In this document: positions 17,166-46,475 of the stretch, in pieces
Position numbering within the stretch: position 1 is the first letter of the stretch
Layout of the letters: each line of letters starts with the position of its first letter
DNA from: Gemmatimonadota bacterium
Lineage (GTDB): Bacteria; Gemmatimonadota; Gemmatimonadetes; Longimicrobiales; Gaopeijiaceae
Reading direction: 5' to 3'
Length of the DNA stretch: 64,000 nucleotides
NCBI GenBank assembly: GCA_030428885.1
Contig: JAUIEJ010000008.1
Coordinates: 124,001-188,000 of the forward strand
Notes under the pieces: model-generated
Told to the model about the DNA's origin: nothing
Database searches by the model: none
The model's input: only the letters and a program-made list of their open reading frames with translations
Position numbers and translations under genes: made by a program

Positions 17166-19229
17166 ATGAACGCCCGTTCTCGATCCTGCCGCCGCCCCTG
17201 GGGTCCGGGGTTCGCGGCCCTCTCGGCCCTTCTCGCCACCGCTCCCGCAGCCTGTCAGGCCCCGGGCCAGGTCGCCTCCCCCGATGGACGGACCGTGGTG
17301 ACGGTGGAGACCACCGACGGCGGCCTTTTCTACCGCATCGATCGGGACGGCGCACCCCTGGTGCTTCCCTCCCGGTTGGGCTTCGCGCTTCGGGGCGCCC
17401 CCGACCTCCGGGACGGTCTGTCCATCGCCGGCACGAACCGGGCGTCGGTGGACGAGACGTGGGAGCAGCCGTGGGGCCAGGTGCGCACCGTGCGGGACCA
17501 CCACAACGAGCTGCGGGTCGCCGTGGAGGAGACGTCGGCGCCGGGCCGCCGCTTCGAGGTGGTGGTGCGGGTCTTCGACGACGGGGTGGGGCTTCGATAC
17601 GTGGTGCCCGACCAGCCGGGATTGGCCGAGGTCGTGGTCGACGATGAACTCACCGAGTTCGCCTTCGCCGAGAACGCCGACGCCTGGTGGATTCCCTCGG
17701 ATCGGCCCCGGAAGGACCGCTCCGAGATGCTCTATTCCCGGTCTCCGGTGAGCGTCCTGGACAGCGTCCAGACTCCCCTGACCCTGGAGTCGCCGAGCGG
17801 TCCGGTCATGGTGGTCCACGAGGCCCATCTGGTCGACTGGCCCCGCATGTTCCTGGCGGGCGACCAGATCGAGGAGCGCACCCTGCGGGCCGCCCTGGCG
17901 CCCATGGTCGACGGCGTGAAGGCTCGCCGGGCGACCCCCTTCGAGACGCCGTGGCGCACGATCCAGATCGCCGACCGCGTCGAAGACCTCCAGCCCTCGG
18001 TCCTGGCCCTCAACCTCAACCCGCCGAGCGTGCTCGACGACACGTCGTGGATCGAGCCCATGACCTACGTGGGCATCTGGTGGGGCATGCACATCGGGGT
18101 GAACAGTTGGGGGTCGGGCCCGATTCACGACGCCACCACCGACAACACCCTCCGCTATCTCGACTTCGCCGCGGACAACGGCGTGGGCGGGGTTCTGGTG
18201 GAGGGGTGGAACGTGGGATGGGACGGCGACTGGATCGCCAACGGCGACGTCTTTTCGTTCACCGAGGCCTATCCGGACTACGACCTCGAGCGCGTGGCGG
18301 CCCACGCCCGGGAGCGGGGCGTCGCTCTCATCGCCCACAACGAGACCTCCGGGGGACTGGCCAACTACGAGTCCCAGATGGACTCGGCCTTCGCCCTCTA
18401 CGAGTCCCTCGGGATCCGGGCCATCAAGTCGGGCTACGTCATCGACACGATTCCCGGGGGCCACAGCCACTACTCCCAGGAGATGGTGCGGCACCATCGC
18501 CGCGTGCTCGAGACCGCGGCCCGCCATGGCATCATGATGAACGTGCACGAGCCGGTCCACGACACGGGCGAGCGCCGCACGTATCCCAACATGATGACCC
18601 GGGAAGGCTCCCGAGGTCAGGAGTACAACGCCTGGTCCGGCGACGGGGGCAATCCGCCGGAGCACGAGACGATCCTGTTCTTCACGCGCCTGATCCCGGG
18701 TCCCATGGACTTCACTCCGGGGGTCCTGGACATCCTGCGCACCGACCCCGACGGGCGGGAGCGGGCGTTCCACGAGCCCCGCATCCGGACCACGGTGGCC
18801 AAACAGCTCGCCCTCTACGTGGTGCTCTACTCGCCCTTCCAGATGGCCGCCGACCTCATCGAGAATTACGAGGGGCACCCCGCCTTCGAGTTCATCCGCA
18901 CCGTCGCGGTGGATTGGGACTCCACCCGGGTCCTGGAGGGGGCCATCGGAGACCACGTGGTGGTGGCCCGGAAAGCCCGGGACTCGGACGAGTGGTTCGT
19001 CGGCGCCATCACCGACGAGCAGGGTCGGACCTTCGAGGTGGCGCTGGATTTCCTCGATGCGGATGGGGACTACGTCGCCGAGATCTACGCCGACGGGCCC
19101 GGAGCCCATTGGGTCGATGCTCCCCTGGAGCTGGCGATCTCGGAGCGGGCCGTGGATTCGAACACGACCCTGAGCCTGGTTCTGGCCCCCGGCGGCGGAC
19201 AGGCGATCCGCATCCGGCCGGCGGGGTGA
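17166..19229 (+). CDS. susB: GH97 alpha-glucosidase (SusB-like, inverting type)
   Basis: 687 residues; the signal sequence ends at a Cys (APAAC), possibly a lipoprotein. It has the N-terminal beta-sandwich of GH97 (SPDGRTVVTVETTDGGLFYRI) and the barrel with WWGMHIG, EGWNVGWDGDW and NVHEP (Glu462), then TREGSRGQEYNAW and NPPEHETILFF, the acidic residues that in SusB serve as base and acid and bind calcium. At the position where retaining GH97 enzymes have an Asp nucleophile it reads AIKSGYVID with Gly, as in inverting SusB. It should release glucose from malto-oligosaccharides in the periplasm. It follows the ROK regulator by 145 nt. Confidence 0.92.
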   Translation: MNARSRSCRRPWGPGFAALSALLATAPAACQAPGQVASPDGRTVVTVETTDGGLFYRIDRDGAPLVLPSRLGFALRGAPDLRDGLSIAGTNRASVDETWEQPWGQVRTVRDHHNELRVAVEETSAPGRRFEVVVRVFDDGVGLRYVVPDQPGLAEVVVDDELTEFAFAENADAWWIPSDRPRKDRSEMLYSRSPVSVLDSVQTPLTLESPSGPVMVVHEAHLVDWPRMFLAGDQIEERTLRAALAPMVDGVKARRATPFETPWRTIQIADRVEDLQPSVLALNLNPPSVLDDTSWIEPMTYVGIWWGMHIGVNSWGSGPIHDATTDNTLRYLDFAADNGVGGVLVEGWNVGWDGDWIANGDVFSFTEAYPDYDLERVAAHARERGVALIAHNETSGGLANYESQMDSAFALYESLGIRAIKSGYVIDTIPGGHSHYSQEMVRHHRRVLETAARHGIMMNVHEPVHDTGERRTYPNMMTREGSRGQEYNAWSGDGGNPPEHETILFFTRLIPGPMDFTPGVLDILRTDPDGRERAFHEPRIRTTVAKQLALYVVLYSPFQMAADLIENYEGHPAFEFIRTVAVDWDSTRVLEGAIGDHVVVARKARDSDEWFVGAITDEQGRTFEVALDFLDADGDYVAEIYADGPGAHWVDAPLELAISERAVDSNTTLSLVLAPGGGQAIRIRPAG

Positions 19230-19235
19230 GGGCCG

Positions 19236-20252
19236 CTACGCCCGCCCTCCCGCGCCCCCCCGGGGGGCCAGCTCCGGGCTGAACGCCGGCGCCTCCATGT
19301 GCCGGAGGGCCGCCACGGCGCACCCCAGGAGTCCGGGGTGTTCCGCCTGGATCCACCCCAGGGCCACGCTCTCACAGAACCGGGTGAACCGGCCCTTGTC
19401 TTCGAACCGGGCCCGAATGCGCTCGGCGTCGAGGAACGGCACCAGACGGTGGAGCATGCCGCCGGAGAGGAACACGCCTCCCGTGGCCCACGAGGCCAGG
19501 GCCATGTCGCCGCAGAACCCGCCCAGGATGTCGAAGAAGTCCTCGATGGCCTGGAGGGCCGTGGCGTCGGCGTCGTGGGCCAGGTCGACGATCTGGGGCG
19601 CCGTGCGCGACGGCACCGGGACGTCGTCCCGGCCGTGGGCGATGTGGAGGTTGGCCCAGTACAGGTTCTCCAGTCCCGGCCCCGACACCAGACGCTCCAC
19701 CGAAACCCGGCGATAGCGGGAGATGAGGATCTTCAGCAGCTCGATCTCGTGATCGTCGGTGGGGGCGAACCCCACGTGGCCGCCCTCCGACGGCACCACC
19801 TCGCCTCCAGGGGTCTGGATGGCGATGCCCAGGCCCGTGCCCGGCCCGATCACCGTGCGGATGCCCCCGGGCCGGGGCCGGGCCTCGCCGAACCACGTGA
19901 CCTCGTCGGGGTCCAGCACGTCGATGGCCAACGCCTGGGCGGTGAAGTCGTTGAGGATCTCCAGCGGCGCCGCCAGGTGCTGCCGCAGGGCCGCCCGGCT
20001 GAAGCTCCACGGACTGTTGGGCAGATCGACCAGGTCTTCGTGGATCGGGCCCGCCACCGCGATGCAGGCCTCCACGATCTCGTCCACGCCCCGGCGTTCC
20101 AGGTACCGGGCGATGGCGTCTTCGATGCCCTCGAACTCGGCACACGCCAGGACCTCCACGCTGCGGAGATCCCGGGGGCCGTCGCCCACCAGGGCGAACC
20201 GGGCGTTGGTGCCGCCGATGTCGGCGATGAGGATGGCGCCGGCGGGGTTCAC
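19236..20252 (-). CDS. glk: Glucokinase (Glk, hexokinase fold)
   Basis: 338 residues of the E. coli Glk type rather than the ROK type: phosphate-binding loop IADIGGTNARFAL, catalytic region EILNDFTAQALAI, GPGTGLGIA, and EGGHVGFAP. It phosphorylates cytosolic glucose with ATP. The GTG at 20252 overlaps the TGA of the upstream GH13 gene (GTGA), so kinase and amylase are translated from one mRNA. It converges closely with the GH97 gene (6 nt apart). The location fits a pathway in which secreted glucosidases release glucose that is then trapped inside. Confidence 0.93.
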   Translation of the reverse strand: MNPAGAILIADIGGTNARFALVGDGPRDLRSVEVLACAEFEGIEDAIARYLERRGVDEIVEACIAVAGPIHEDLVDLPNSPWSFSRAALRQHLAAPLEILNDFTAQALAIDVLDPDEVTWFGEARPRPGGIRTVIGPGTGLGIAIQTPGGEVVPSEGGHVGFAPTDDHEIELLKILISRYRRVSVERLVSGPGLENLYWANLHIAHGRDDVPVPSRTAPQIVDLAHDADATALQAIEDFFDILGGFCGDMALASWATGGVFLSGGMLHRLVPFLDAERIRARFEDKGRFTRFCESVALGWIQAEHPGLLGCAVAALRHMEAPAFSPELAPRGGAGGRA

Positions 20253-22618
20253 GGAGTGGGCTCCCGGATCCAGATCACGAAGGCGCCGGCGGCCACGTCC
20301 ACCGACCGGCGTCCACCGTCCAGGGTCGACTGGGGACCGTCGACTCCCGAGAGGTCGATGGCGTCTCCCGTGGAGACCTGCCGCCACCGCCCCGGGGGAA
20401 GCTCCACCTCCACCGATCCGTCGTCGTCGCCGTTGTTGGCCGCCACCAGCACCTCGCCGCCCACCAGATACGCCAGGAGCCGGCCGTCGTCGGGCAGGAA
20501 GAAGCGGTAGTGGTCGTCGGGCACCTCGGCCACCCGGAATACCCGGCCCACCTCGGAGAAGCGGAGACTCAGGAGTCCCCTCCACCAGTCCCGCATGGCG
20601 GCGGCGGAGGAGCCCGGCACCAGGTCGCTCCACACGAACCGATTCGGGGCCCGGAGATTGTAGGTGTCGTCCCGGCCCTTGAAGTGGATGGGACCCCCGG
20701 CCGTTTCCACCACCCGCTCGTCGTCGGGTGCGAGCCCCTTGGAGCGGAGCATCTCCGTGCCTCCGTGGATCACCACGGGGCCGGCCGAGGTGAGGAGCAG
20801 CCCCGCGGCCCGGCGTACCGCCCCCAGATCGACGCCGCGTCGGCCGTCGTGCTCGTCGTTGGTCGCGTAGCGATCCGCCAGCGCCCAGTTGTCGTGGATG
20901 TCCACGTACGAGATTCCCCGGGTGCTCAGGGGTTCCTCGTCGAAGCGGTTCGCCAGGGCGCGCACCGCGGCGTCCCGCGCCGTGCCGTCACCCCCGGCCC
21001 ACCCGCGCTCGTTCACGTCGAAGGGGCTGCCCTGGAATGCGTTCCGGGCGTCGTCCTGGAAGAACGTGATGGGGGCGTCGGCCTTGTACCACGACCAGTC
21101 GGGATTCGACGCTACGTCGGGGTCGGACGGGGCGATCCACGGCTCGCCGTAGATGATGAGGTCGTCGGGGAGTTCGCTCTTCACCCGGAGCAGCGTCTGG
21201 CGGTCGATCTGGCCCGCGAGGTCGATGCGGAATCCATCCACGCCCAGTTCCTCGACCCAGTGGCGCAACTGGTCCACGATCCACCGCTGCACCATGGGCC
21301 GCTCCTCGCTCTTCACCTCGTTGCCGAAGGGCCCGATGTGCTCGAGGTCGTCGTTGGTGCGGAACCAGTACGGCAGGTCGAGGACGTTGAAGTTCAGGAG
21401 CAGATGCCGGCCGTCCATGTTCTCACCGGTGTGGTTGGGCACCACGTCGATGATCACGGCCATGCCCTCGGCGTGGAAGGCGGCCACCAGGTCCTTGAAG
21501 GCCTGCCGTTCGGCCCCGTGCTCGCTCCCCGGGGGACGGAAACGGCTCTCCACGGCGAAGGCGTGGGTGGTGCGGTACCCCCACTGGTAGTTCTCCTCGG
21601 CGATCCCCATCTCCCGGGCCACCGGGTCGTCGGCGAAGGTGGCGCGCCATTCCTCGTCGGAGTAGTGGAGGTACTCCTGCATGGGCATGAGGTGCACCAC
21701 GTTCACGCCGAGTTCCACGAGGTGGTCGAAGCCCACGGGCTCACCGTCGGCGTTGCGGAGTCCGGCCCGGGCCATGGCCGGGAGGGTGCCGGCGTCGGCG
21801 CCCACGTCGGGAAGGAGATCGGTGAAGTCCTGGAGGTGCACCTCGTAGGCCACCACGTCTTCCATGGCGGGCCGGCCCCCGGCCACGGGTGGGGGAGGCG
21901 GACCGTCGCGCCACACCCGGGAGCGACCCAGGGCATCGTCGTTGACCCGGGCGTAGGGGTCGGAGACGTGCGCCGGGTGGGCCTCGTAGAACCAGTTTCC
22001 CGGATCGGAGGGACCGTGGACCGTGAAGTCGTACCACGTGCGGTGCAGATCGCCGGACAGGCGGGCTTCCCAGACGCCGTCGGCCCCCAGGGTCATGTCC
22101 ACCGTGGTGTCGGGCTCCGGGGCGGTGCGGCCGTCGGGGCCGTAGAGGTGGAGCCGGACGGCGTCGGCCCGGGGCGAAAACAAGCGGAAGGTGGTGGACG
22201 CGCCGTCGTCGGCGACGTCGGCGCCCAGGGGGAGGGTGGAGTAGAGGTTCCGGAACCAGGGGTCCCGTCGCACCAGGGCGCGGAGGGAGCGGTCCGGCAG
22301 CTCCAGATAGTGCACCCGCCGGACGTCCAGCGACTCGCCCGGAATCAGCAGGGATCCGGTCTCGGTCTGGCGAAGCACCTGAGCCACCGGAATCTCCCGA
22401 CCGCTCCCGTCGGTGAGACGCCACGCTCGGGGATCGTCCGGACGGTCGGCGCCGGTGAGGGTCAGCCGGATCGACGTGGGACCGTGGATCTCGGCCTGGA
22501 GGCGAGGCTCCACTGGGGACTCCTGAGCGGTCGTTCCCGCCGCCGAGAGACATCCGGCGACGAGGGCGGCCGCGGTGGCGGGGAGGAGGGATCGTAGGGC
22601 GAACGGGCGAGCAGGCAT
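20249..22618 (-). CDS. GH13 alpha-glucan hydrolase lipoprotein, pullulanase-like
   Basis: 789 residues. A perfect lipobox (LVAGC) about 22 residues in predicts a lipoprotein. Order: lipoprotein signal; strand-rich N-terminal domains, the second resembling CBM48/E-set (TFRLFSPRADAVRLHLYG); GH13 barrel; C-terminal beta-domain. Catalytic residues: Asp466 nucleophile (GFRIDLAG), Glu492 acid/base (YGEPW), Asp576 (DIHDNW); region I is DVVPNHTG. The domain order resembles type I pullulanases, so alpha-1,6 or mixed activity is likely. ATG 22618 was chosen for the signal peptide. First gene of a unit with glk; divergent from a second GH13 gene across 133 nt that contains a shared 21-bp motif. Confidence 0.9.
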   Translation of the reverse strand: MPARPFALRSLLPATAAALVAGCLSAAGTTAQESPVEPRLQAEIHGPTSIRLTLTGADRPDDPRAWRLTDGSGREIPVAQVLRQTETGSLLIPGESLDVRRVHYLELPDRSLRALVRRDPWFRNLYSTLPLGADVADDGASTTFRLFSPRADAVRLHLYGPDGRTAPEPDTTVDMTLGADGVWEARLSGDLHRTWYDFTVHGPSDPGNWFYEAHPAHVSDPYARVNDDALGRSRVWRDGPPPPPVAGGRPAMEDVVAYEVHLQDFTDLLPDVGADAGTLPAMARAGLRNADGEPVGFDHLVELGVNVVHLMPMQEYLHYSDEEWRATFADDPVAREMGIAEENYQWGYRTTHAFAVESRFRPPGSEHGAERQAFKDLVAAFHAEGMAVIIDVVPNHTGENMDGRHLLLNFNVLDLPYWFRTNDDLEHIGPFGNEVKSEERPMVQRWIVDQLRHWVEELGVDGFRIDLAGQIDRQTLLRVKSELPDDLIIYGEPWIAPSDPDVASNPDWSWYKADAPITFFQDDARNAFQGSPFDVNERGWAGGDGTARDAAVRALANRFDEEPLSTRGISYVDIHDNWALADRYATNDEHDGRRGVDLGAVRRAAGLLLTSAGPVVIHGGTEMLRSKGLAPDDERVVETAGGPIHFKGRDDTYNLRAPNRFVWSDLVPGSSAAAMRDWWRGLLSLRFSEVGRVFRVAEVPDDHYRFFLPDDGRLLAYLVGGEVLVAANNGDDDGSVEVELPPGRWRQVSTGDAIDLSGVDGPQSTLDGGRRSVDVAAGAFVIWIREPTP

Positions 22619-22690
22619 GCGAGGCTCGGTAGGGGAACACCCCGTAGATTGGCGGCCCGACGGAGCGGAGGCAACCGGGTGTCGGTCCAT

Positions 22691-22711
22691 TTGACACCGG
22701 GGGTTCCAAAA
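22691..22711. promoter_or_regulatory. Maltodextrin-locus motif, copy A (candidate operator)
   Basis: TTGACACC-N5-TTCCAAAA, in the 133-nt gap between two divergent GH13 genes. The outer 8-mers form an imperfect dyad (TTGACACC against TTGGAACC, 6 of 8). An identical pair of 8-mers with the same 5-nt spacing recurs upstream of malQ (34110-34130). TTGACA could also serve as a -35 box for the rightward gene, with a weak -10 about 18 bp further on. Confidence 0.55.
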
Positions 22712-22751
22712 GGCGATTCTGCTCCATATCGGCCCCCTATCTCCGAACACC

Positions 22752-24674
22752 ATGACCTCTCGGCGCGGCGTGTTGCTCCTGATCCCGGTGCTCCTCGTCC
22801 AGGGCGCCTGCGCGCCGGAGTCGGGGGGGCCGGAGCGCGCCGCCCCCGAGCCCGTGGCCACCGTGCCCCGGTGGTCCCAGGAGGCCATCTGGTACCAGGT
22901 CTTCGTGGAGCGCTTCCGCAACGGGGACCCGGCCAACGATCCGACCCTGGCCGACATCGACGGATCGTGGCCCCACCGGGCCTTCGACGGCTGGGCCCCT
23001 ACGCCCTGGGGCCAGGACTGGTACGCCCAGGAAGACTGGGCCCGGACGTCGGGGGAGCCGTTCTACCTGACGGTCCAGGCCCGCCGGTACGGCGGCGACC
23101 TCCAGGGGGTCATGGACCAGCTCGACCAACTCGACGCCCTGGGAGTGACGGCCCTCTACCTGAATCCGGTCAACGACGCGCCGTCGCTGCACAAGTACGA
23201 CGCCCGCAACTACCGGCACGTGGACCGGAACTTCGGCCCCGACCCCCAGGGCGACGCGGCGCGGATGGCCGAAGAAGACCCGGCGGACCCCGCCACCTGG
23301 GCGTGGACCTCGGCCGACTCGCTGCTCCTGGCCGTGGTGGATGCGGCCCACGCCCGGGGCATGCGGGTCGTTCTCGACGTCTCGTGGAACCACACGGGGA
23401 TCACCTTCTGGGCGTGGCGCGACGTCCTGGAGCGACAGGAGGACTCGCCCTTCGCCGACTGGTACGAGATCGAGGCGTTCGACGACCCGGCCACACCCGA
23501 CACCAGCGAGTTCGCCTACCGGGGATGGGCCGGGGTGCGGGAGCTCCCCGAGTTGCGGAAGATCGGGCGGCCGGAGGGCGAGACCCACGGTCCCATCGCA
23601 GGCACCCTGGTGCCCGAGGTGCGGGACCACGTGTTCGCCGTGAGTCGGCGCTGGCTGGATCCCGACGGGGACGGCGATCCCTCCGACGGCGTCGACGGGT
23701 TCCGGTTGGACGTGGCCGAGATGGTGCCCCTGGGATTCTGGCGGGAATACCGGCGCTTCGTGCGGAGCGTGAATCCCGAGGCCTACCTGGTGGGGGAGGT
23801 GTGGTGGGAACAGTGGCCGGATCGCATGTACGATCCGGCGCCGTGGCTCCAGGGCGACGTGTTCGACGCGGTCATGAACTACCGGTGGTACGCCCCCACC
23901 CGGAGCTTCTTCACCGGGGCGCCTCCGGGGCTGTCGGCGTCGGCGTGGATCGAGGCCCTGAACGCCGCCGAAGCCGGCATTCCCCCGGAGCACGTGAAGG
24001 CCCAGATGAACCTCACGGCGAGCCACGACAGCCCCCGGTTCGCCACCTCCATCGGGAATCCCGGCCTCTACAAGTCCGGGGTGAACCCCCGGGACAACCC
24101 GGACTACCGCCTCGACCGCCCCGGCCCCGACACCCGGCGCCTGCAGGAGTTGATCCTGGTGCAGCAGTTCACCTGGAAGGGCGCCCCCCACATCTGGAAC
24201 GGCGACGAGGTGGGCATGTGGGGCGCCGACGATCCGGACAACCGCAAGCCCATCGTGTGGCCGGACCTCGCCTACGCCGACGAGGCGGCCGATCCCTTCG
24301 GGCGCCCGCGAGAGTCGCAGGCCGTGGAGCCGGATCTCGAGCTGAGGGCCCGCTATGCCGAGCTCATCGCGCTCCGGAGAGCCCACACCGATCTGTTCGT
24401 GGACGGCGACGTCGAGGTGCTGGTCGCGGACGACGACGCCCGTGGGGTGGTCTACCAGCGTGTCCTGGGCCAGGGGGAGGACGCCCGGCGGGCCCTGGTG
24501 GCCTTCAACGCCGGAGCCGGAGAACTGGCCCTCCCCCCGGTTGCCGAGTCCGGTGGTTGGACGCAGGCCGTGGTCGTAGGCGCGGCCTCGGGCGACCCCA
24601 CCGATGGATTGGTGCTGGGGCCCCGCTCGGCCGGGGTGTGGTTGTTCAGCGGATCGGGGGCCGGGGGGGAGTAG
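22752..24674 (+). CDS. GH13 alpha-amylase/neopullulanase-like lipoprotein
   Basis: 640 residues. The signal peptide ends at a lipobox-like QGAC (about residue 20). The barrel starts with EAIWYQVFVERFRNGDP. Region I is DVSWNHTG; catalytic Asp320 (GFRLDVAEM), Glu349 (VGEVWW) and Asp426 (TASHDSPR) are all present, and a calcium-site-like acidic loop (DPDGDGDPSDGVDG) precedes the nucleophile. It ends with a short beta-domain. It resembles cyclomaltodextrinase/neopullulanase-type enzymes that cut maltodextrins at the cell surface. It diverges from the other GH13 gene and is followed after 77 nt by the ankyrin/barrel gene. Confidence 0.9.
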   Translation: MTSRRGVLLLIPVLLVQGACAPESGGPERAAPEPVATVPRWSQEAIWYQVFVERFRNGDPANDPTLADIDGSWPHRAFDGWAPTPWGQDWYAQEDWARTSGEPFYLTVQARRYGGDLQGVMDQLDQLDALGVTALYLNPVNDAPSLHKYDARNYRHVDRNFGPDPQGDAARMAEEDPADPATWAWTSADSLLLAVVDAAHARGMRVVLDVSWNHTGITFWAWRDVLERQEDSPFADWYEIEAFDDPATPDTSEFAYRGWAGVRELPELRKIGRPEGETHGPIAGTLVPEVRDHVFAVSRRWLDPDGDGDPSDGVDGFRLDVAEMVPLGFWREYRRFVRSVNPEAYLVGEVWWEQWPDRMYDPAPWLQGDVFDAVMNYRWYAPTRSFFTGAPPGLSASAWIEALNAAEAGIPPEHVKAQMNLTASHDSPRFATSIGNPGLYKSGVNPRDNPDYRLDRPGPDTRRLQELILVQQFTWKGAPHIWNGDEVGMWGADDPDNRKPIVWPDLAYADEAADPFGRPRESQAVEPDLELRARYAELIALRRAHTDLFVDGDVEVLVADDDARGVVYQRVLGQGEDARRALVAFNAGAGELALPPVAESGGWTQAVVVGAASGDPTDGLVLGPRSAGVWLFSGSGAGGE

Positions 24675-24751
24675 GGGCGTGGTTGCCTGACCCGAGGTGC
24701 GAGGCGTACGCTCCGGCCCGGAGGCCGTCGCTTCGCTTTTGGGGAGGAGCC

Positions 24752-26866
24752 ATGCTCGCGCTGTCTCGACGCCCGTTCGTCGTTCCGGTTCTGTGGGCCG
24801 CACTGGCCTGGCCCTCGGGCTCGGCGGCGCAGCGGGTGGGGACCGTCACCGATCGCAGTGGACGGGTCGACGGCGGTGCGGAGTGGGCGGGACTCGTCTA
24901 CGCTCGGGCGGCCGAGGCGGTGCGATCCGGGGACCTGGCCGCCGTCGAGGTTGCCCTGGCCGAGATCGAGGGGCTGGAAGGCGGGAGCGTCGACGCTCCG
25001 TTCGAACGGAGGGCCCTTCCCATCGATCCGGCGTGGAGCCCGGCCGAACGGGAGGCGTACATCGTCGATGTCGTCCTCCCCTACCTCCATCCGGACGCGG
25101 CCGGCCAATCGGTCGAGTGCGGGACGATCTCGACCCTCCAGGTCAACACGTTCGATGCCCGTGGTGAGCCCGAGGGGTTCGCCCAGGCCACCCTGTCCTG
25201 TTCGGTCGGGCCGGTGCGCTTCTCGTACGTGGGGCAGCGGACCAGGACCGACGGCGGAACGCTCGACGTGGAGGGCTTCCGGTTCGGGGAGGTGCCCACC
25301 ACGGTGAGCATCCTGTCGCGAGGAAGCGTCTTCATCGAATCGGACACCGATCATGGAACGCTCCTCGCCCTCGCCGCGGGCTCGGGACACGCCCCGGTCG
25401 TGGAGCGGCTGATGCGTGCCGGTGCCTCGGCCGACGGTCGATCGGCGGCGGGGCGAACGGCCCTCATGGACGCGGCGGCGCGGGGGCAGGGGTCCACGGT
25501 CCGGGCTCTGCTGGCCGGCGGCGCGTCGGTCGACCTCGCCGCTCCCGACGGGCGATCGGCGCTGCACTTCGCCGTCGAGGCCGACCGCCTCCCGACGGTC
25601 GAGGCGCTGCTCGAAGCAGGCGCCGACCCCTCCGTCACGGATCGGGAGGGGCGCACCCCGCTGCACGGCGCCGTGGACGACTCGGTGGCCACGGGTCGCA
25701 TGGTCGAGCGCCTCGTGGCAGCGGGGGCTCCCCTCGAACGGGAGACGGCGGCGGGTGACCGGGCCCTTCACCTGGCCCTGGAGAACCGGCACGCCGACGC
25801 CGCCCTCACCCTCCTTCGTCTGGGCGCCGACGCCACGGCTCCCGACGGGGACGGCCGGACGCCGCTGACGCTGGCCATCCGATCGGGGCTGGACGTCCTC
25901 GGATCCCTCGTGGAAGGGGGAGCCGACCTGGACCAGCCGGATGGTGAGGGGTGGACGGCCCTGCACCACGCCGCGCGCGCGGCCGACCCCGAGATGGTGG
26001 GGGAGGTCCTCGCGCTGGGGGCCCGGGTAGATGCGCGGGCGACCGATGGCTCCACCGCCCTCATGCTCGCCGCGGAGGGTGGGGCGACGGACGTCCTGAA
26101 CCTCCTCCTTCGGGCAGGTGCCGAGATCGAAGCGTCGGACGATGCCGGCAACACCGCCCTCCACAGGGCGGCGCGGGGCGGACGCGATCGGACGGCGGAG
26201 GCCCTGCTCCGGGCCGGCGCCGACCGGGGCCCGAGGAACGGGAACGGCCGCTCACCTCAAGATCTCGCCGGCGACCACGGCCACGGGGGCGTGCAGTCGC
26301 TCTTCCGGCACACGAAGGGACTGCATGTCGGCCTCCGGGGGGCGGCGGGATTCACGCGCCTCGCCGACCCGCAACACGAGTCGTCGGTGGGCTGGGAGTA
26401 CGGCCTCGGGCTCGGCCTGAAGGTCCACGAGCGGGTGCGACTCCAGGCCGAGATCGGCTGGGCCACCCGCACGACGGATCCCACGGAAGAGGGGCCCGTC
26501 GTCGTCCAACCGGGCAGTGGGGACTTCTACTACGCGGCGTATTCCGTCGACCTGCGTCCCACCGTCCGCGTGGCCCTCGGCAATCCCTATCGGACCCACC
26601 TCTACGGCGTCGCGGGCATGAACTTCTCGACCGTGGAGGAGGCGGAGATCCTGGACTGGGTCGACACCGACGCCGACGGGATCATCGTGACCGACGACAC
26701 GGACACGGAGGTGGCGTCCTTGATCGGTGGTCTGGGGATTCAGGCCACGCTGGGGCGCATCATCACGTCGGTGGAGATCCTGGTTTCCCGATCGTCGGAT
26801 ACCCGACTGGACCGATTCGAAGGGCCCATGGAAGCGATCAGCGTGGGGCTGTCGTTCGCCTGGTAG
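24752..26866 (+). CDS. Secreted ankyrin-repeat protein with C-terminal outer-membrane beta-barrel
   Basis: 704 residues; a GGGGAGGAG ribosome-binding site precedes the ATG. Order: Sec signal peptide (ends near GSAAQ, ~residue 27); a ~170-residue N-terminal domain without recognised family; then about ten ankyrin repeats (roughly 200-520) with the GxTALHxAA pattern, for example GRTALMDAAARG, GRTPLHGAV, GWTALHHAARA, GNTALHRAARGG; then ~180 residues of alternating amphipathic strands (VGLRGAAGF, EYGLGLGLKV, FYYAAYSVDLRPTVRVAL, LYGVAGMNF) ending in SFAW. A terminal aromatic residue after a beta-strand is the signature of outer-membrane barrels. The ankyrin part should face the periplasm or the outside. 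Function is unknown; the neighbours degrade alpha-glucans. Confidence 0.82.
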   Translation: MLALSRRPFVVPVLWAALAWPSGSAAQRVGTVTDRSGRVDGGAEWAGLVYARAAEAVRSGDLAAVEVALAEIEGLEGGSVDAPFERRALPIDPAWSPAEREAYIVDVVLPYLHPDAAGQSVECGTISTLQVNTFDARGEPEGFAQATLSCSVGPVRFSYVGQRTRTDGGTLDVEGFRFGEVPTTVSILSRGSVFIESDTDHGTLLALAAGSGHAPVVERLMRAGASADGRSAAGRTALMDAAARGQGSTVRALLAGGASVDLAAPDGRSALHFAVEADRLPTVEALLEAGADPSVTDREGRTPLHGAVDDSVATGRMVERLVAAGAPLERETAAGDRALHLALENRHADAALTLLRLGADATAPDGDGRTPLTLAIRSGLDVLGSLVEGGADLDQPDGEGWTALHHAARAADPEMVGEVLALGARVDARATDGSTALMLAAEGGATDVLNLLLRAGAEIEASDDAGNTALHRAARGGRDRTAEALLRAGADRGPRNGNGRSPQDLAGDHGHGGVQSLFRHTKGLHVGLRGAAGFTRLADPQHESSVGWEYGLGLGLKVHERVRLQAEIGWATRTTDPTEEGPVVVQPGSGDFYYAAYSVDLRPTVRVALGNPYRTHLYGVAGMNFSTVEEAEILDWVDTDADGIIVTDDTDTEVASLIGGLGIQATLGRIITSVEILVSRSSDTRLDRFEGPMEAISVGLSFAW

Positions 26867-26884
26867 TCCGCGGCACGGCCCCCG

Positions 26885-28717
26885 TCAGAGGATGATCCGC
26901 ACGCCCCCCAGGTCTTCGACCCGGTGGGGGAACCGATCGCCGGGAGTCCCGATGAACATGGCGTTCTTGGGCACGCCCAGCCGCTGCGAGAGGCGCTCGA
27001 TGAGCTCCGGTCCGAAGGTGCCTTGAACCGCGAGGAAGTCGATCTTGAGTCGCGGGTACAGGTGATCCACCGTGACCAGTTGCTCGGCCAGCCGCGGGGG
27101 AATGTCGCCCTCGGTTTCGTATGCGTGGACCACCCGCAGGTGGTTCGTCTGCTCGTTCTTGAGCACGTAGAGCGCGGCCCGGTTCAGGATCGAGATGTCG
27201 TCGCCCTTCGTGAAGTAGACGACCTCGCTGGAGGCGATTTCGTCGATCTTCCGGTAGAGCGTCCTCCGGATCCAGTCGTTGGCCGCCGAGAGGCGATCGA
27301 CCGCGGTGCGCGACAGGGAGAGCCCGAGGCGCAGGATCTCGATCCGGAGGAACATGACCGCCACGGCGGCCAGCCCCACCAGGTAGTAGGTGGCGAAGAC
27401 CTCGACGTTGAGGGGGTCGAGGAGCACGTTGCCCAGCAGGCCCACCAGGACGGCGGCGAGGGCCACGACCACGGTGGGCCAGGCGGCTCGCTCCGGCCGG
27501 GGAAGGCGGCCCCGGGTCTTCTTGAGGAGCATGTTGCCGATGGCGTACAACGCCATGACGCTCAGGAACGAGAGCGTGTACACGCCGGCCAGCGTCTCGA
27601 TGTCGCCCCGGGTCACGAACAGGATCGAGGTGCAGAGGGCGAAGAACCCCAGAATGATCCAGTGGTTCGTCGACCGCCAACGGTTCTCGGCCAGAAGGAA
27701 CTGGGGGAGGCAGCGGTCGAGGGACATGCGCCGCACCAGTCCGGTCACGCCCACGTAGCTCGTGAGGACGGCGCCCGAGAGCACCAGCACGGCGTCGAGG
27801 CTCACCCACCACCCCAGCCCCGGCCCCAGGGACACGGTGCCCATCCGGGCGAGCAGGTCCTGGGGCACCTCCTGGATCACCGCCAGGGGGAGCAGTCCCA
27901 GGGCCAGGAGCGCCATGAGCGGATTGAAGACGGCCACGGCCCCCCACATGTTGCGCAGCGTCTTCGGAAAGACGCCCTCCTTCTGCTCCTCGATGAAGTT
28001 GGCCGAGCTCTCGAACCCGCTGATGCCGAGCATCGCGGCCGCGAACCCGAAGAAGAGGGCGCCGACGAATCCCCGGGGACTCGGCATGGCCCAGTTCTGC
28101 AGCAGCAGGCCGGGGTCCCTCACCACCGCGGCACCGGCGACGACGGCCAGGACCGTCAGGGTCGCCATGTGCAGCACGAAGATGCCCAGGGCCACGGCCG
28201 CCGACTCGGTGATGCCCACCAGGTTCAACACGGCGAAGAAGCCCAGGACGCCGACGGTGGCCCCGATGACGTCCAGCCCCTGATAGAGGTTGTGGGCGTA
28301 GTGCATCGCCTCGTTCGCACTGATCACCGCGGTGGCGATGTACGACAGCAGGGTCAGGACCGCGGCTCCGGCGGCGAGGCGCTTTCCGGTGGTGTTGAGC
28401 AGCACCGTGTAGCTGCCGCCGTTGAGCGGGAGGGCACCCCCCACCTCGGCGTAGATCTTCCGGAACAGAAACAGCACTCCGGCCACGATGACGAGCACCA
28501 GCGGGGCGAGTGCCCCGGCCTGGGCGGCGCAGAGCGCCGAGACGTAGAGCACGCTCGACGTGATGTCGTTGCCGCAGATGGCGGTGGCCCGCCACGTGCC
28601 GAGCGTGTGTTTATGCGGCTGGTCGAGGTGGGAGACCGGGGTGGGCCCCGATCCGAGGCCCGTGATCTTCCGGGACTCTCCCCACCCGGCGAAGTCCCAG
28701 GGCTCCGACGTGTTCAT
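26885..28717 (-). CDS. APC-superfamily permease with C-terminal soluble domain
   Basis: 610 residues. About 12 membrane segments (roughly residues 50-460) carry APC features such as GNDITSSVLYVSALCAAQAG and GGALPLNGGSYTVLLNTTGK. A soluble tail of ~140 residues follows (DEIASSEVVYFTKGDDISILNRAALYVLKNEQTNHLRVVHAYE), reminiscent of a universal-stress or ligand-sensing alpha/beta domain. The substrate is unknown. ATG 28717 was chosen over 28753 because it is preceded by a purine-rich stretch and starts close to the conserved region. It lies 95 nt downstream of the malQ/MFS/GH13 operon on the same strand and may be read through from it. It converges with the ankyrin/barrel gene. Confidence 0.85.
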   Translation of the reverse strand: MNTSEPWDFAGWGESRKITGLGSGPTPVSHLDQPHKHTLGTWRATAICGNDITSSVLYVSALCAAQAGALAPLVLVIVAGVLFLFRKIYAEVGGALPLNGGSYTVLLNTTGKRLAAGAAVLTLLSYIATAVISANEAMHYAHNLYQGLDVIGATVGVLGFFAVLNLVGITESAAVALGIFVLHMATLTVLAVVAGAAVVRDPGLLLQNWAMPSPRGFVGALFFGFAAAMLGISGFESSANFIEEQKEGVFPKTLRNMWGAVAVFNPLMALLALGLLPLAVIQEVPQDLLARMGTVSLGPGLGWWVSLDAVLVLSGAVLTSYVGVTGLVRRMSLDRCLPQFLLAENRWRSTNHWIILGFFALCTSILFVTRGDIETLAGVYTLSFLSVMALYAIGNMLLKKTRGRLPRPERAAWPTVVVALAAVLVGLLGNVLLDPLNVEVFATYYLVGLAAVAVMFLRIEILRLGLSLSRTAVDRLSAANDWIRRTLYRKIDEIASSEVVYFTKGDDISILNRAALYVLKNEQTNHLRVVHAYETEGDIPPRLAEQLVTVDHLYPRLKIDFLAVQGTFGPELIERLSQRLGVPKNAMFIGTPGDRFPHRVEDLGGVRIIL

Positions 28718-28811
28718 GGTCGTGTCACCCCTCTCCCGGGGGACTCGGGTCAACCGCGCTCCCCCTCCGTACGTCCGCGCACCGAAAGGTAGACCCGGGC
28801 GGGTTGGTCCG

Positions 28812-30521
28812 TCAGCCCTCCTCCGCCGACCGGATCTCGAGCAACACGACCCCGGCCGGGGTGGAGAGCGTGACCGCCCCGCCCTCGACGGTGGCTGCAG
28901 TGCCGGTGTAGGCGTCCACCACCGCCTCGCCGTCGGCGAACACGTCGCCCACGGGAAGGGTCTTGTCGCCCTCGGGCAGATCGAGCCCCACCACCACCCG
29001 GTCCGTCGCTCCGTCCTGGTCCAGCGTGCGGGCGAAGACGTACGGCTCGGTCTGGAGGCGCCGGTGGGCCCCGGCGCCCACCGCCGGGTGCGCGGCCCGG
29101 AACCGCCCGAGGGCGCGCCAGTGCTCCAGGAGGGCGGCGCCCCCGGCGGCGTCCAGGGCTTCCCAGTTCATGAACGACCGCAGGTTCGCGTCGCCCTCCG
29201 CTCCGTCCACCACCAGGGGCCGTGCCAACTCGTCGCCGTAGTAGATCTGGGCGGCGCCGGGGGCCAGGAGGAGGGCCGTGCCGGTGCGGTAGGGCTGCTC
29301 CCGCTCCCGGTCGAGGGGCCCGCCGTCGTCGTGGGAGCTGGCGTAGTTCACCGTGGAGAGCCCCTGGAGAGCCCCGGTGCGCAGGGCGGCGGCGTAGTCG
29401 GTGTACATGGCGTCGAGGTCGCCCCCGGCCCGGCCCTTGAACCCGAAGTTGATGAGGGCGTCGTAGCCGAAGTCGTAGAAGTCGACGGTGCGGTCGCCGA
29501 ACGAGAAGTCCCGGCCGTGGCGCAGTTCGTAGTTGTAGACCTCGGCCATCATCCAGAACGGCCGGTCGTCCAATACCTGGTCGGGGTGGGCGGCTTTCCA
29601 GTCGTCGAAGGCCTGTCGGGCCTCGACGGCCAGTTCGGCGCTGACCTGCTCCTCGAAGTGTTTGGCCGTATCGACCCGGTACCCGTCGAACCCGTACTCC
29701 CGCACCCAGTCGGTGAGCCACTTCATGACGTAGTAGCGGGGGGCCCGGGGGTAGCCCGTGCGCTCGAAGAAGGCGTCCAGCTCGGCCTGCTCCTGATCCA
29801 GCCGGCCCTCGGCGCTCCACTTCTCCACCAGGAAACCGGGGAGCTCCACGGCGTCGGTGCTCTCGGTGAGGAAGTCCGGGAGCTCGGGCACGAGGTTGCA
29901 GGTGACCGTGGTCTCGTAGTCCCGGTAGGTGCAGGGGGGCTCCAGGCGGATCCAATCCGATGGCCAGGGCTCGTCGAGATCGGTTCCGGCGCCGGGGTGG
30001 TTGATGACGGCGTCCATGATCACCCGGATGCCCCGGGCGTGGGCTTCGTCGACCACGGCGCGCAGGTCGTCGGCGGTGCCCAGCGACGGCTCCACGGCGG
30101 TCCAGTCCTTCGCCCAGTAGCCGTGGTATCCGTAGCTCCGACCCGTGCCTTCGTCGACACCGCCCCGGATCTGCTCGGTGAACGGCGTCATCCACAGCGC
30201 GCTCACGCCGAGTTCATCGAAGTAGCCGGCCCGGAGCATGTCCAGGACCCCCGCCAGATCGCCCCCCTCGAAGCCCCGGAGGAGGGCCGCGTCGTCGGGT
30301 CGGCCGGCCCCGTCGTTGGTGGGGTCCCCGTTCCGGAACCGGTCGGTGAGGAGGAAGTAGATCGTGGCGGAGTTCCAGAACACGTCGGGGGCGGCGGTCG
30401 CCTCCATCGGCGCGGCGGCGCTCGACCCCTCCTCCGTGCCTCCGGACCCGTCGGCGGCGGGCCCGCAGCCGACCAGCAGTCCCATGGAGAGCAGGAACGC
30501 GGTCCCCCCCATGCGCTTCAT
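28812..30521 (-). CDS. GH13 alpha-amylase lipoprotein (MalS-like)
   Basis: 569 residues with a perfect lipobox (LLVGC, residues ~15-19). The barrel opens with SATIYFLLTDRFRNGDP. Region I is DAVINHPG; catalytic Asp284 (GYRVDTAKHF), Glu327 (MMAEVYN) and Asp398 (SSHDDG) are present. A Cys pair in EPPCTYRDYETTVTCNL could form a disulfide, as expected for an exported enzyme. It resembles periplasmic alpha-amylase MalS (GH13_19). Last gene of a three-gene operon: its ATG overlaps the stop of the MFS gene (ATGA). It should cut long maltodextrins at the envelope for uptake by the neighbouring transporter. Confidence 0.9.
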   Translation of the reverse strand: MKRMGGTAFLLSMGLLVGCGPAADGSGGTEEGSSAAAPMEATAAPDVFWNSATIYFLLTDRFRNGDPTNDGAGRPDDAALLRGFEGGDLAGVLDMLRAGYFDELGVSALWMTPFTEQIRGGVDEGTGRSYGYHGYWAKDWTAVEPSLGTADDLRAVVDEAHARGIRVIMDAVINHPGAGTDLDEPWPSDWIRLEPPCTYRDYETTVTCNLVPELPDFLTESTDAVELPGFLVEKWSAEGRLDQEQAELDAFFERTGYPRAPRYYVMKWLTDWVREYGFDGYRVDTAKHFEEQVSAELAVEARQAFDDWKAAHPDQVLDDRPFWMMAEVYNYELRHGRDFSFGDRTVDFYDFGYDALINFGFKGRAGGDLDAMYTDYAAALRTGALQGLSTVNYASSHDDGGPLDREREQPYRTGTALLLAPGAAQIYYGDELARPLVVDGAEGDANLRSFMNWEALDAAGGAALLEHWRALGRFRAAHPAVGAGAHRRLQTEPYVFARTLDQDGATDRVVVGLDLPEGDKTLPVGDVFADGEAVVDAYTGTAATVEGGAVTLSTPAGVVLLEIRSAEEG

Positions 30522-32125
30522 GGAGCCCCCACGGCCGCAGCCACGTCGTCGTGATCGTCCACTCGCAGCGTGAGGAGCGCCGAGAGGATCAGCGAGCCTC
30601 CGCCGATGAGGAGGGCGTAGATGGCCTCGCCCCCGAAGAAGCGGCCCACGAAGAACCCCAGGATGGCCGCGGCCACGATCTGGGGAATCACGATGAAGAA
30701 ATTGAACACCCCCATGTAGTACCCCATCTTCGACGGCGGCAGCGATCCGGTGAGGATGGCGTAGGGCATGGAGAGGATGCTGGCCCAGGCGATGCCGACC
30801 CCGATCATGGACACGAGGAGCAGGGTCGGGTCGGTGATGACCCAGACCGAGAGGAGTCCCAGGGCACCCGCCACCAGGCAGAGGGCGTGGGCGATCTTCC
30901 GGCTCGTGGCCCGGGCCACCACCGGAATCCCGAAGGCCACCAGGGCGGCGATGCCGTTGTAGGCGGCGAAGCAGACCCCGACCCAGTTGGCGCCCTCGTT
31001 GTAGAGAGCCGACGCGGCGTCGGTGGTGCCGTACACGTGGCTGGTCACCGCCGCCGTCGTGTAGATCCACATGGCGAAGAGAGCGAACCAACTGAAGAAC
31101 TGGACCCACGCCAGTTGCTTCATGGTGGTGGGCATGTCCTGGAAGTCGTTCAGGATGGTGACGAAGGCGTTGTCCCACGAGCCCGACTGCTGCATGCGTC
31201 CGGAGAGCACCAGGAGGAGTCCCACGGCGGCCACGCCCACCGAGAGGATCATGACCTGGTACAGCTCGGCCCGGGCGAGCCACCAGCTCAGGGCGAGGCC
31301 CACCCCCAGGGTCACGAGACCGATCCGGACCTGACGCCCCCCGTTGGCCGCGAAGGCCTCGGGAGTGCGTTCTTCCTTTGCGAACTCCTCCCGGTCCTGG
31401 TGGTCGATGAACGACTCCATCTCCTCGGGGGAGTACTCCCGGGAGCGGAGGACCGTCCAGAGCACGGCCAGGAAGAACACGACCGCGCCCAGATAGAACG
31501 ACCAGCGCACCGAATCGGGGATCCGACCGGCGGGCGCCTCGTTGGCCACGCCGAACCAGTTCGTGAGCATCCACGGCAGAATGGACGCCACCACGGCCCC
31601 GGTGCCGATGAAGAAGCTCTGCATGGCGAAGCCCGTGGTGCGCTGTTCGCTGGGCAGGTTGTCGCCTACGAACGCCCGGAACGGCTCCATGGAGATGTTG
31701 ATGGAGGCGTCCATGATCCACAGGATGCCCGCCGCGATCCACAACGTCGGCGAGTTGGGCATGGCGATGAGCGCCAGCGATGCCAGGACGGCCCCCACCA
31801 GGAAGTAGGGCCGACGCCGGCCGAGGCGGTTCCAGGTGCGATCGCTGAAGTACCCCACGATGGGCTGGACCAGGAGGCCGGTGACGGGGGCCGCCACCCA
31901 CAGCACGGGGATGTCCTCCACCGACGCGCCCAGGGTCTCGAAGATGCGGCTGACGTTGGCGTTCTGGAGCGCGAAGCCGAACTGGATGCCCAGGAAGCCG
32001 AAGCTCATGTTCCAGATCTCCCCGAAGGAGAGCCGGGGCTTCGGCCGGAGTCCCTCGGCACCCTGCTGGAGCGGGCTCTGGGCCCGGTCCCGGGGCGTCG
32101 GGGAAGGGGTGGGGCGCGTGGTCAT
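30518..32125 (-). CDS. MFS/GPH-type sugar transporter, probable maltodextrin/maltose permease
   Basis: 535 residues, about 12 membrane segments. The pattern LSFGEIWNMSFGFLGIQFGFALQNANVSRIFETLG and QPIVGYFSDRTWNRLGRRRPYFLVGA is that of the SLC45/MalT-like group within the MFS that moves sucrose or maltose with protons. A long cytosolic loop (residues ~225-270, acidic) separates the halves. Both ends overlap neighbours by ATGA, with malQ upstream and the GH13 amylase downstream, so the three proteins are made together. Uptake of maltose or short maltodextrins across the inner membrane is therefore the likely job. Confidence 0.9.
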   Translation of the reverse strand: MTTRPTPSPTPRDRAQSPLQQGAEGLRPKPRLSFGEIWNMSFGFLGIQFGFALQNANVSRIFETLGASVEDIPVLWVAAPVTGLLVQPIVGYFSDRTWNRLGRRRPYFLVGAVLASLALIAMPNSPTLWIAAGILWIMDASINISMEPFRAFVGDNLPSEQRTTGFAMQSFFIGTGAVVASILPWMLTNWFGVANEAPAGRIPDSVRWSFYLGAVVFFLAVLWTVLRSREYSPEEMESFIDHQDREEFAKEERTPEAFAANGGRQVRIGLVTLGVGLALSWWLARAELYQVMILSVGVAAVGLLLVLSGRMQQSGSWDNAFVTILNDFQDMPTTMKQLAWVQFFSWFALFAMWIYTTAAVTSHVYGTTDAASALYNEGANWVGVCFAAYNGIAALVAFGIPVVARATSRKIAHALCLVAGALGLLSVWVITDPTLLLVSMIGVGIAWASILSMPYAILTGSLPPSKMGYYMGVFNFFIVIPQIVAAAILGFFVGRFFGGEAIYALLIGGGSLILSALLTLRVDDHDDVAAAVGAP

Positions 32126-34059
32126 GAGGCGTCGCCTCGAAGGGGAGCGTGCTCGCGGGCCGCGCGCAGGATCTCCACGCGGGCTTCGACGGCGGGGTCG
32201 TTCAGGAGATCCTCCAGGGGCCGGGCCATGGTGCGCTGCCAGTTGGGGCGTTCGGAGGACCGGGTGCCCGGGAGGTTCACCTGATCGGGTTCCAGCCAGA
32301 GGTCCTCGATCCAGGGCACCACCAGGGGGCTGTCGGAGCGCCCGATCCAGGTCAGAACCCGGTCGAAGAGGTCGCCGGGGTCGTCCACCGATCCGCCCAC
32401 GGTCTCGGCCAGGCGCTTCGCCGACGCGGTCCGGGCCTTCCGTTCCGCCGGCGCGGCCTCGGGGTCCAGGAGGCCCGACTCCACCCGCGCCTCGATGTCC
32501 CGGCCTTCGAGCCATCCGACGAACGTCGGGGTGTCGTGGGTGCCGACCATGGCGACGTCGGTCTCCGCCGGAGATCGGGGCTCGGGGGCGTCGGCCTCGA
32601 AGATCGCCAGCACCATGCCCCGGATCCCGTGGCGCGGGAGTCCCTCGTCGATTTCGGGGGGGACCGTGCCCAGGTTCTCGCCGATGATCTCGCAGCGGCG
32701 CCGATGGGACTCCAGCGTGAGCACGGCGAACATCTCGTCGGTGGGATAGTGGACGTACGTCCCCTGGTTCAGGGGGAGGCCGTGGGGGATCCAGTAGAGG
32801 CGGGTCAGGGCCATGATGTGGTCGACCCGGAGGACCCCCGCCAGGGAGGCCTGGTGGGCGATGGAGCGGGCCACGTAGTCGTGGCCCTCGGCCTGGGACG
32901 CCCCCGGCAGGACCGGCGCGAATCCCCAGTCCTGCCCGCTGGGGAAGCCCGGGTCGGGGGGGGCGCCCACCGACATGCCCCGGGCGAACAGATGGGGACG
33001 GGCCCACGGGTCGAAGCCGTCGGGGTGGACCCCCACGGCCAGATCCAGGCCCAGGCGCACACCCCATCCCTCCAGGGTGTCCTGGAGGCTCCGGAGCCGC
33101 TGTCGCACGGCGGTCTGGGCCACCCGGTGGAAGCGCGCCTCGTCGGGATCCACGTGTTCGTCCCGGAGGTGCCCGCCGCGGGCGTCGTCGGGCCAGTCGC
33201 GCCAGTTGCGGCCCAGGCGTCGTTGGGCCCCCCGGAAGCGGGCGTAGAGGGCCAGTTCGGGGTCCACCCCGTCGGGCCCCGGATCGGGGACGTCGGCCAG
33301 GAGGGCCCGAACCTCGGCGTCGGCCCGGGCCACGTCCAGCCGCTGCACCGGTTCTCCCCCCCCGGCGCCCGGCACCCGGTCCAGAATCAGCTCCGACCAG
33401 AAGAGCCGACTCACCGGGGAATAGGGGCTCGGCTCCACCGGCGGGGTGTTGAAGGTCGGAAGCAGGGGGAGGGCCGTGACCAGGTCCCCTCCCCGTTCAC
33501 CCACCCACCGACAGACGGTCTCGAGGTCGGTGAGATCGCCCACCGCGCCGGAACGGCGACTGCGCAGGGCGCCCAGGTGGGTGCCCACGCCCCAGCTCCG
33601 GGTCGTGCCCGGACGTCGCCACGCTCGGGTGGGTGCGGAGATGACGCGGGCCGAGTGGAGGGAGCCCGAGGCCTCCACCCGAAGTGTGTGGTAGCCCGGA
33701 GGGAGACGTCGACCCCCGGGCCGCACCGTGCCCGCCACCTCTCCCAGGCCCCACTTCCCACCGTCTTCCAGTTCGATCTCGGCCTGGGCCGGCATGGTGG
33801 TGTGGAGCCGCACCGAAGGCATGACGCCGTCCCAGGCGAGAAGCACCGGCGGCAGGGGTGGGCGCGCATTGCGCCCTTCCCGGTAGGCCCGGAGCGCCTC
33901 GGGGGCGTCGCTCACGTCGGCCAGCGGTGCGCCGAGGGAGGTGCAGATGGCCATGAGGGACTCGGACGACACGGTCACGGTGCGTTCGAGGCCGTCGACG
34001 AAGGTGTGGAGCACACCCAGGTCGGTGGCGAGGGTTTCGAGGGCGGCGCGATCGTCCAT
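32122..34059 (-). CDS. malQ: 4-alpha-glucanotransferase (GH77, amylomaltase)
   Basis: 645 residues, no signal peptide, so cytosolic. The GH77 catalytic residues are Asp413 (RVDHIMALTRLYWIP), Glu461 (IIGENLGTVP) and Asp509 (VGTHDTPTFVGW). The N-terminal ~150 residues form an extra domain as in the long bacterial MalQ type. The enzyme transfers maltodextrin segments between chains and releases glucose, which the nearby Glk would use. It is the first gene of the operon malQ / MFS / GH13, with the candidate operator copy B 51-71 nt upstream of the ATG. Confidence 0.93.
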   Translation of the reverse strand: MDDRAALETLATDLGVLHTFVDGLERTVTVSSESLMAICTSLGAPLADVSDAPEALRAYREGRNARPPLPPVLLAWDGVMPSVRLHTTMPAQAEIELEDGGKWGLGEVAGTVRPGGRRLPPGYHTLRVEASGSLHSARVISAPTRAWRRPGTTRSWGVGTHLGALRSRRSGAVGDLTDLETVCRWVGERGGDLVTALPLLPTFNTPPVEPSPYSPVSRLFWSELILDRVPGAGGGEPVQRLDVARADAEVRALLADVPDPGPDGVDPELALYARFRGAQRRLGRNWRDWPDDARGGHLRDEHVDPDEARFHRVAQTAVRQRLRSLQDTLEGWGVRLGLDLAVGVHPDGFDPWARPHLFARGMSVGAPPDPGFPSGQDWGFAPVLPGASQAEGHDYVARSIAHQASLAGVLRVDHIMALTRLYWIPHGLPLNQGTYVHYPTDEMFAVLTLESHRRRCEIIGENLGTVPPEIDEGLPRHGIRGMVLAIFEADAPEPRSPAETDVAMVGTHDTPTFVGWLEGRDIEARVESGLLDPEAAPAERKARTASAKRLAETVGGSVDDPGDLFDRVLTWIGRSDSPLVVPWIEDLWLEPDQVNLPGTRSSERPNWQRTMARPLEDLLNDPAVEARVEILRAAREHAPLRGDAS

Positions 34060-45016: not shown

Positions 45017-46471
45017 TCAGTAACTGTTCTGGACCATCTCCCCGGGGGCCACGTCGATCTCCCGCTGGGGAATGGGATAGAGCAGGCGAATGTCACCCTG
45101 CGTCAGACCCGCATCCACCAGAGGTTGGAAGGATCCCATCACCGACGGCGCCACTCCGAAGCGAAGGAGGTCGGCCCAGCGCTTGCCCTCGGTGACGAAC
45201 TCCAACCGGCGCTCGAAGAGGAGCTTCTGGTCCCACGTGCCGGGGGTCGAGGCGTCGATGGGCGTGACGCCCGCCCGCTCCCGGACCTGGTTGATGAGGC
45301 TGTATCCCTCGGCGCCCTCGCCCACCGCCTCGGCCAGCATCAGGAGCACGTCGGCGTACCGGAACACCGGGAAGTTGTTGTCGGCGTCGCCCGGTCCGAA
45401 CGGCTGGCTCTCCCACTTGGCGACCCAGACCGTGGTGTCGTTGCCCTCGACCTCGAAGCCCCAGGTGCCGCCGAAGCCGCGCTCGTCGTTCTCCTCGATG
45501 CCGTACTGCACGCTGTGGAGGTACTCGACGCCGGGGGACAGCACCTGCGGAGCATTCCCCGCTCCGACACCGCCCCCATCACCGAACGGAGTGTAGTAGT
45601 CGGTGAACTGGCTTCCCGTGTCGGTGCCGCCGGCCCTGTACTGGAGCTCGAAGACCGACTCGACGTTGTTTTCGTTCTGGACGCCCCAGAGGTCGGAGTA
45701 GTTGTCGACGAGCTGGTACTGGTTGGAGTTCACCACGCGGCGCAGTGCCGTCGCGGCATCACTGCTCTGCCCGTTGGTGAGGTACACCAACCCGAGCAGT
45801 GCGTTGGCGGCGCCGCTCGTGGCCCGCCCCAGGTTCGCGGCATCATAGGAGGCCGGCAGAATGCTCTGGGCCAGTTCGAGGTCTCCGGCGATCTGCTGGT
45901 AGATGACGTCCGCCGAGACCTGGTTCACCGCGACGTTGGGCGACCTCACGGCCTCGATCTGGAGAGGGACGTTCCCCCAGAGGACCGCGAGCTGGTAGTA
46001 GAAGAGCGAACGGATGAAGAGGGCCTCTCCCCGAATCCGCTCCTTGAACGACCCATCCTCCAGATTGTCGATGCGGTCGAGGATGGTGTTGGCCCGGGCA
46101 ATTCCCTGGTAGGCCGTGGTCCAGGGGCTGGAGAGCTCCGAGGCCGTGGCCAGTTCCGAGAAGTGGGCCAGGCGGAAATACACTTCGGCCAGCCCGGTAT
46201 TGCCGCCCCCGTTCATGGTGTTGTCGGAGCGCATCTCGTGGAGCAGAACGTACGCACGGTTGTAGGCGCCGTTTCCGGCGAGCGTGCTGTAGGCCCCGTT
46301 GATGGCCACCGTGAAGTCGGTGGGAGTCCGGTAGAAGGACTCGACATTCCGTTCGGAGATGGGGCTGAGGAGCGTGAAGTCTTCGCTGCAGCCCGAGAAG
46401 ATCACGGCCGTCGAGAGAGCCGCGATCATGCGAGTGGTCGACTTGAAGTTCATGAGAGATCTCGATTGCAT
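45017..46471 (-). CDS. susD: SusD/RagB-family nutrient-binding outer-membrane lipoprotein
   Basis: 484 residues. Lipobox IFSGC about 28 residues in. The helical SusD fold is recognisable: SPISERNVESFYRTPTDFTVAINGAYSTL, AYQGIARANTILDRID, IRGEALFIRSLFYYQLAVLWGNVPL, and near the C-terminus LLFERRLEFVTEGKRWADLLRFG. SusD covers the SusC pore and captures glycans. ATG 46471 lies 4 nt after the susC stop; ATG 46453 (MNFKS) gives a more typical signal peptide and may be the real start. It forms the pair with the susC gene upstream and ends the unit before a hairpin. The ligand is unknown. Confidence 0.92.
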   Translation of the reverse strand: MQSRSLMNFKSTTRMIAALSTAVIFSGCSEDFTLLSPISERNVESFYRTPTDFTVAINGAYSTLAGNGAYNRAYVLLHEMRSDNTMNGGGNTGLAEVYFRLAHFSELATASELSSPWTTAYQGIARANTILDRIDNLEDGSFKERIRGEALFIRSLFYYQLAVLWGNVPLQIEAVRSPNVAVNQVSADVIYQQIAGDLELAQSILPASYDAANLGRATSGAANALLGLVYLTNGQSSDAATALRRVVNSNQYQLVDNYSDLWGVQNENNVESVFELQYRAGGTDTGSQFTDYYTPFGDGGGVGAGNAPQVLSPGVEYLHSVQYGIEENDERGFGGTWGFEVEGNDTTVWVAKWESQPFGPGDADNNFPVFRYADVLLMLAEAVGEGAEGYSLINQVRERAGVTPIDASTPGTWDQKLLFERRLEFVTEGKRWADLLRFGVAPSVMGSFQPLVDAGLTQGDIRLLYPIPQREIDVAPGEMVQNSY

Positions 46472-46475
46472 GATA

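Follow-up and report, generated by a model that had tools for sequence, protein, structure and literature searches.

A single protein of 704 residues, encoded by a Gemmatimonadota bacterium, combines a signal peptide and a long ankyrin-repeat array with a C-terminal domain that is probably a small outer-membrane β-barrel. Its gene, referred to here as the ANK-barrel gene, is one open reading frame with an ATG start at positions 24752–26866 (forward strand) of the window (the whole 64,000-nucleotide stretch of DNA that was analysed). The best reading of this layout, which we favour with moderate confidence, is that of a periplasmic protein-binding scaffold anchored in the outer membrane, in which the ankyrin array is hung from the small barrel.

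Gene structure and domain layout

The ANK-barrel gene is preceded by a strong Shine–Dalgarno sequence (GGGGAGGAG), and the third codon position is high in GC across the whole gene, the junction between the ankyrin array and the putative barrel included. Because of this good ribosome-binding site and the coding signal throughout, chance read-through across the junction is unlikely. The one 704-residue frame confirms the layout given in the preliminary description, in which a signal peptide, a domain of unknown type, ankyrin repeats and a barrel-like C-terminus occur in one protein.

The N-terminus carries a signal peptide, judged by eye from the sequence (MLALSRRPFVVPVLWAALAWPSGSAA; residues ~1–27, positions 24752–24832, forward strand). 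It contains the stretch SRRPFVV (24764–24784), which resembles a twin-arginine (Tat) motif; such a motif was found in none of 75 signal-peptide-like ankyrin ORFs of relatives. Tat export is ill-suited to a BAM client, and the motif is odd in a protein with an outer-membrane barrel. The domain that follows (residues ~28–200, positions 24833–25351, forward strand) has no significant match in Pfam, NCBIfam or the PDB. In a low-confidence AF2 single-sequence model it consists of helices followed by β strands, and the only two cysteines of the protein (residues 123 and 150) both lie within it.

Residues 201–518 (positions 25352–26305, forward strand) are ankyrin repeats beyond doubt. The protein matches Ank_2 with an E-value of 1.6e-77 and 256.6 bits, against a Pfam cut-off of 27.3, and its tandem 33-residue repeats place it in the ankyrin family. 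A custom repeat HMM scores nine repeats at residues 207–497, with a degenerate C-cap extending to residue ~518, so that the first count of about ten repeats was right. AF2, run on the single sequence, models residues ~200–390 mostly with pLDDT values of 70–89.

The C-terminal domain

Residues 519–704 (positions 26306–26863, forward strand) probably form a small, eight-stranded outer-membrane barrel, judging from several sequence features. The domain alone matches OMP_b-brl (PF13505) with 26.0 bits and an E-value of 1.2e-5, below the curated cut-off of 28.7; in a search of the whole genome the score is 25.3 bits. Nine other OMP_b-brl matches in the same genome (E ≤ 0.01), most of which are stand-alone barrels with a signal peptide when judged by eye, score between 18.6 and 43 bits and thus fall on both sides of the cut-off. 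A score of 25–26 bits is thus typical of barrels in this genome. The domain also matches the NCBIfam model CglE (NF033755) with an E-value of 1.1e-4 and 22.1 bits, where the curated cut-off is 70 bits. Using phmmer, it matches one of the genome's own barrels (L059, from a set of eight) with an E-value of 2e-4. Aligned by hhalign to a profile of barrels from the lineage, it gives a P-value of 0.0015 over 135 columns (probability 17%), whereas the N-terminal domain, used as a control, gives 0.41; with a second barrel set, the corresponding values are 0.0076 over 69 columns (probability 5%) and 0.63.

Inspection by eye places eight amphipathic segments in the domain, some joined by short turns (ER, NPYR and GR) and others by longer loops. 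The protein ends in SVGLSFAW (26840–26863, forward strand), which fits the β-signal of BAM substrates, a general feature of outer-membrane barrels with the pattern polar-x-G-x-x-aromatic-x-aromatic. In domain size, strand pattern and C-terminal β-signal, the domain is like the OMP_b-brl and CglE barrels. It differs from them in that it follows ~490 exported residues and scores below both curated cut-offs, while most of the OMP_b-brl barrels examined in this genome are stand-alone proteins. A home-made alternation score gave ankyrin segments values as high as those of barrel segments and, since it does not separate the two, was not used as evidence.

Structure prediction had been suggested as a check on the barrel. 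In AF2 runs without an alignment, the C-terminal domain reached a mean pLDDT of 31 on its own and stayed below 30 within the full protein, with no barrel folded. The Phe-Ala-Trp ending of the preliminary description is as stated, and its barrel is backed by several individually weak sequence signals, with the fold left unproven by AF2. The unfolded model and the weak profile scores speak for a soluble β domain at the C-terminus, which would make the protein an ordinary periplasmic ankyrin protein. We consider this rather unlikely, in view of matches to two barrel models, the β-signal, the pattern of strands and turns, and scores within the range of the genome's stand-alone barrels.

Genomic context

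The ANK-barrel gene lies within a starch/maltodextrin cluster (window 17166–34059) that includes genes for GH97, glucokinase, three GH13 proteins, an MFS transporter, GH77 (MalQ) and an APC amino-acid permease. Its upstream neighbour (22752–24674, forward strand) encodes a GH13 amylase with a lipoprotein-type signal and is separated from it by a gap of 77 bp. Elsewhere in the window, at 45017–49676, a SusD gene is paired with one for a SusC/TonB-type receptor.

It had been suggested that the protein organises the neighbouring amylases. This would be a narrower form of the anchored scaffold, in which the lipoprotein GH13 encoded next door, and perhaps the remaining exported amylases encoded here, would be retained at the outer membrane by the array, as a periplasmic part of a starch-utilisation system. 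The shared strand, the short gap and the position inside the cluster speak for such a role. However, the gene that follows the GH13 orthologue is another one in each of three congeners: in G002 it encodes a lipoprotein that starts with a CBM20-like region and includes an esterase-like part (domains by eye), in G004 a serine hydrolase (by eye) and in G005 an unrelated protein. In the last of these, GH13b and CBM48-GH13 are adjacent, and the block of GH13 lipoprotein, ANK-barrel and permease genes is absent between the flanking amylases. Because the three congeners carry other genes at this place, the link to the amylases is weak, being one of adjacency and not of conservation, and we regard an amylase scaffold as unlikely. 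No conserved partner or neighbour of the ANK-barrel gene was seen.

Topology and proposed function

In the usual topology of outer-membrane barrels, the N-terminal parts face the periplasm. The translocators of autotransporters (type V) have 12 strands and ~270–300 residues; the C-terminal domain, with 186 residues, has room for ~8 strands. As this is too small for autotransport and the array is on its N-terminal side, the array should face the periplasm and not the surface. Display of the array on the surface, for cell contact or adhesion, would require autotransport through the barrel or an inverted topology. Its one support is the probable presence of an outer-membrane barrel; against it stand the length of the domain, the lack of a linker helix and Pfam and NCBIfam scans of the protein without a match to any autotransporter model, which together make it very unlikely. 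The initial proposal of a 'periplasmic or surface' protein-binding scaffold therefore fits the evidence as regards a scaffold on a barrel and a periplasmic location, while its surface variant is disfavoured.

In the anchored-scaffold reading, the ANK-barrel protein would be exported to the periplasm, where BAM would insert its C-terminal domain into the outer membrane as a small eight-stranded barrel. The N-terminal domain and the ankyrin array would then hang from the barrel into the periplasm, and the array may bind one or more envelope proteins, keeping them on the inner face of that membrane. As a partner, the lipoprotein amylase encoded next to it is no more than a candidate. The many exported ankyrin proteins of the lineage and the location of both cysteines in the N-terminal domain were counted for this reading. 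Counted against it were the SRRPFVV stretch, which would suggest Tat export, the unfolded AF2 model, the Pfam score below the cut-off, the low hhalign probabilities and the lack of a conserved partner or neighbour.

Relation to known systems

PgaA is the nearest working analogue of the ANK-barrel protein. In PgaA, a TPR solenoid on a barrel binds a periplasmic enzyme and stimulates or modulates it (PMC9384988). Like PgaA, BcsC and PelB, the ANK-barrel protein would be an exported protein with an N-terminal periplasmic α-solenoid and a C-terminal outer-membrane barrel. Those proteins differ in having TPR repeats and a large polysaccharide porin, where the present one has ankyrin repeats and a domain sized for ~8 strands, read as a small non-porin barrel. 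It has no TPR match, its C-terminal domain comprises 186 residues, and none of the neighbouring genes scanned was recognised as serving polysaccharide export; the protein belongs to neither the PgaA nor the AnkB group.

The AnkB group comprises ankyrin proteins linked to catalase, in which we know of no barrel. It shares with the ANK-barrel protein the use of ankyrin repeats outside a cytosolic or injected setting, there in assistance of an enzyme; as cited in PMC10294975, such ankyrin proteins interact with and promote catalase, and AnkB of P. aeruginosa is periplasmic. By analogy, the array could be a chaperone-like partner of a periplasmic enzyme with the barrel as anchor only, but no catalase gene, the mark of the AnkB type, is among the neighbouring genes scanned and annotated, and this is the least probable of the alternatives.

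Literature searches gave no characterised ankyrin-barrel architecture among the titles and abstracts listed. The earlier remark that no system with this layout has been characterised holds in that sense for ankyrin repeats, but the TPR-barrel proteins PgaA, BcsC and PelB are a characterised analogue (PMC9384988).

Distribution among relatives

Among 154 genomes of the order, searches with the N-terminal domain and the barrel (tblastn) gave no convincing relative; among 395 genomes of the phylum they gave, besides the protein itself, only marginal matches. One weak barrel match (G039, E-value 5e-4) was rejected as chance, because the long multidomain protein that contains it shows no barrel character. 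In pattern scans of species genomes from GTDB, which detect close relatives only, no relative of either end domain was found, and a plasmid search with the barrel domain gave no match.

Exported ankyrin proteins are common in this lineage. In a survey of 109 ankyrin ORFs, built from ankyrin matches within one order, ~75 have an export-like N-terminus according to a simple regular expression. The generalisation that places ankyrin repeats mostly in the cytosol or in injected proteins is thus untrue here, about two thirds of the sampled ORFs being signal-peptide-like. Signal-peptide ankyrin proteins of the same bacterial family resemble the ANK-barrel protein in combining a signal peptide with long arrays, yet none of the 109 has a barrel-like C-terminal extension or a closing β-signal. 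Comparing barrel and ankyrin positions across the family gave no second fusion among the matches listed, and no second case of an ankyrin array combined with a barrel was seen among the relatives sampled.

Other exported ankyrin proteins were encountered as well. A frame lying ~3 kb upstream of the window (L009, G000:C20:118500-123500) combines a signal peptide and a few ankyrin repeats with a serine-hydrolase/β-lactamase-like domain (by eye), and a frame of congener G005 (L175) is similar to this ankyrin-hydrolase fusion. Among the many exported ankyrin proteins of relatives (loci L023–L036 and others), one recurrent family ends in a conserved NNxCxSC-like motif.

Implications

Repeat solenoids on outer-membrane barrels organise periplasmic enzymes, and the familiar cases have TPR repeats and large porins. 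Tentatively, we propose that the ANK-barrel protein is a lineage-specific envelope scaffold, which arose by fusion of two parts common in the group (an exported ankyrin protein and a stand-alone barrel), and in which an ankyrin array and a new N-terminal domain on a small barrel bring enzymes to the inner side of the outer membrane. If this is true, placing ankyrin repeats on a small barrel would offer a simple way, natural and also engineerable, of tethering proteins there.
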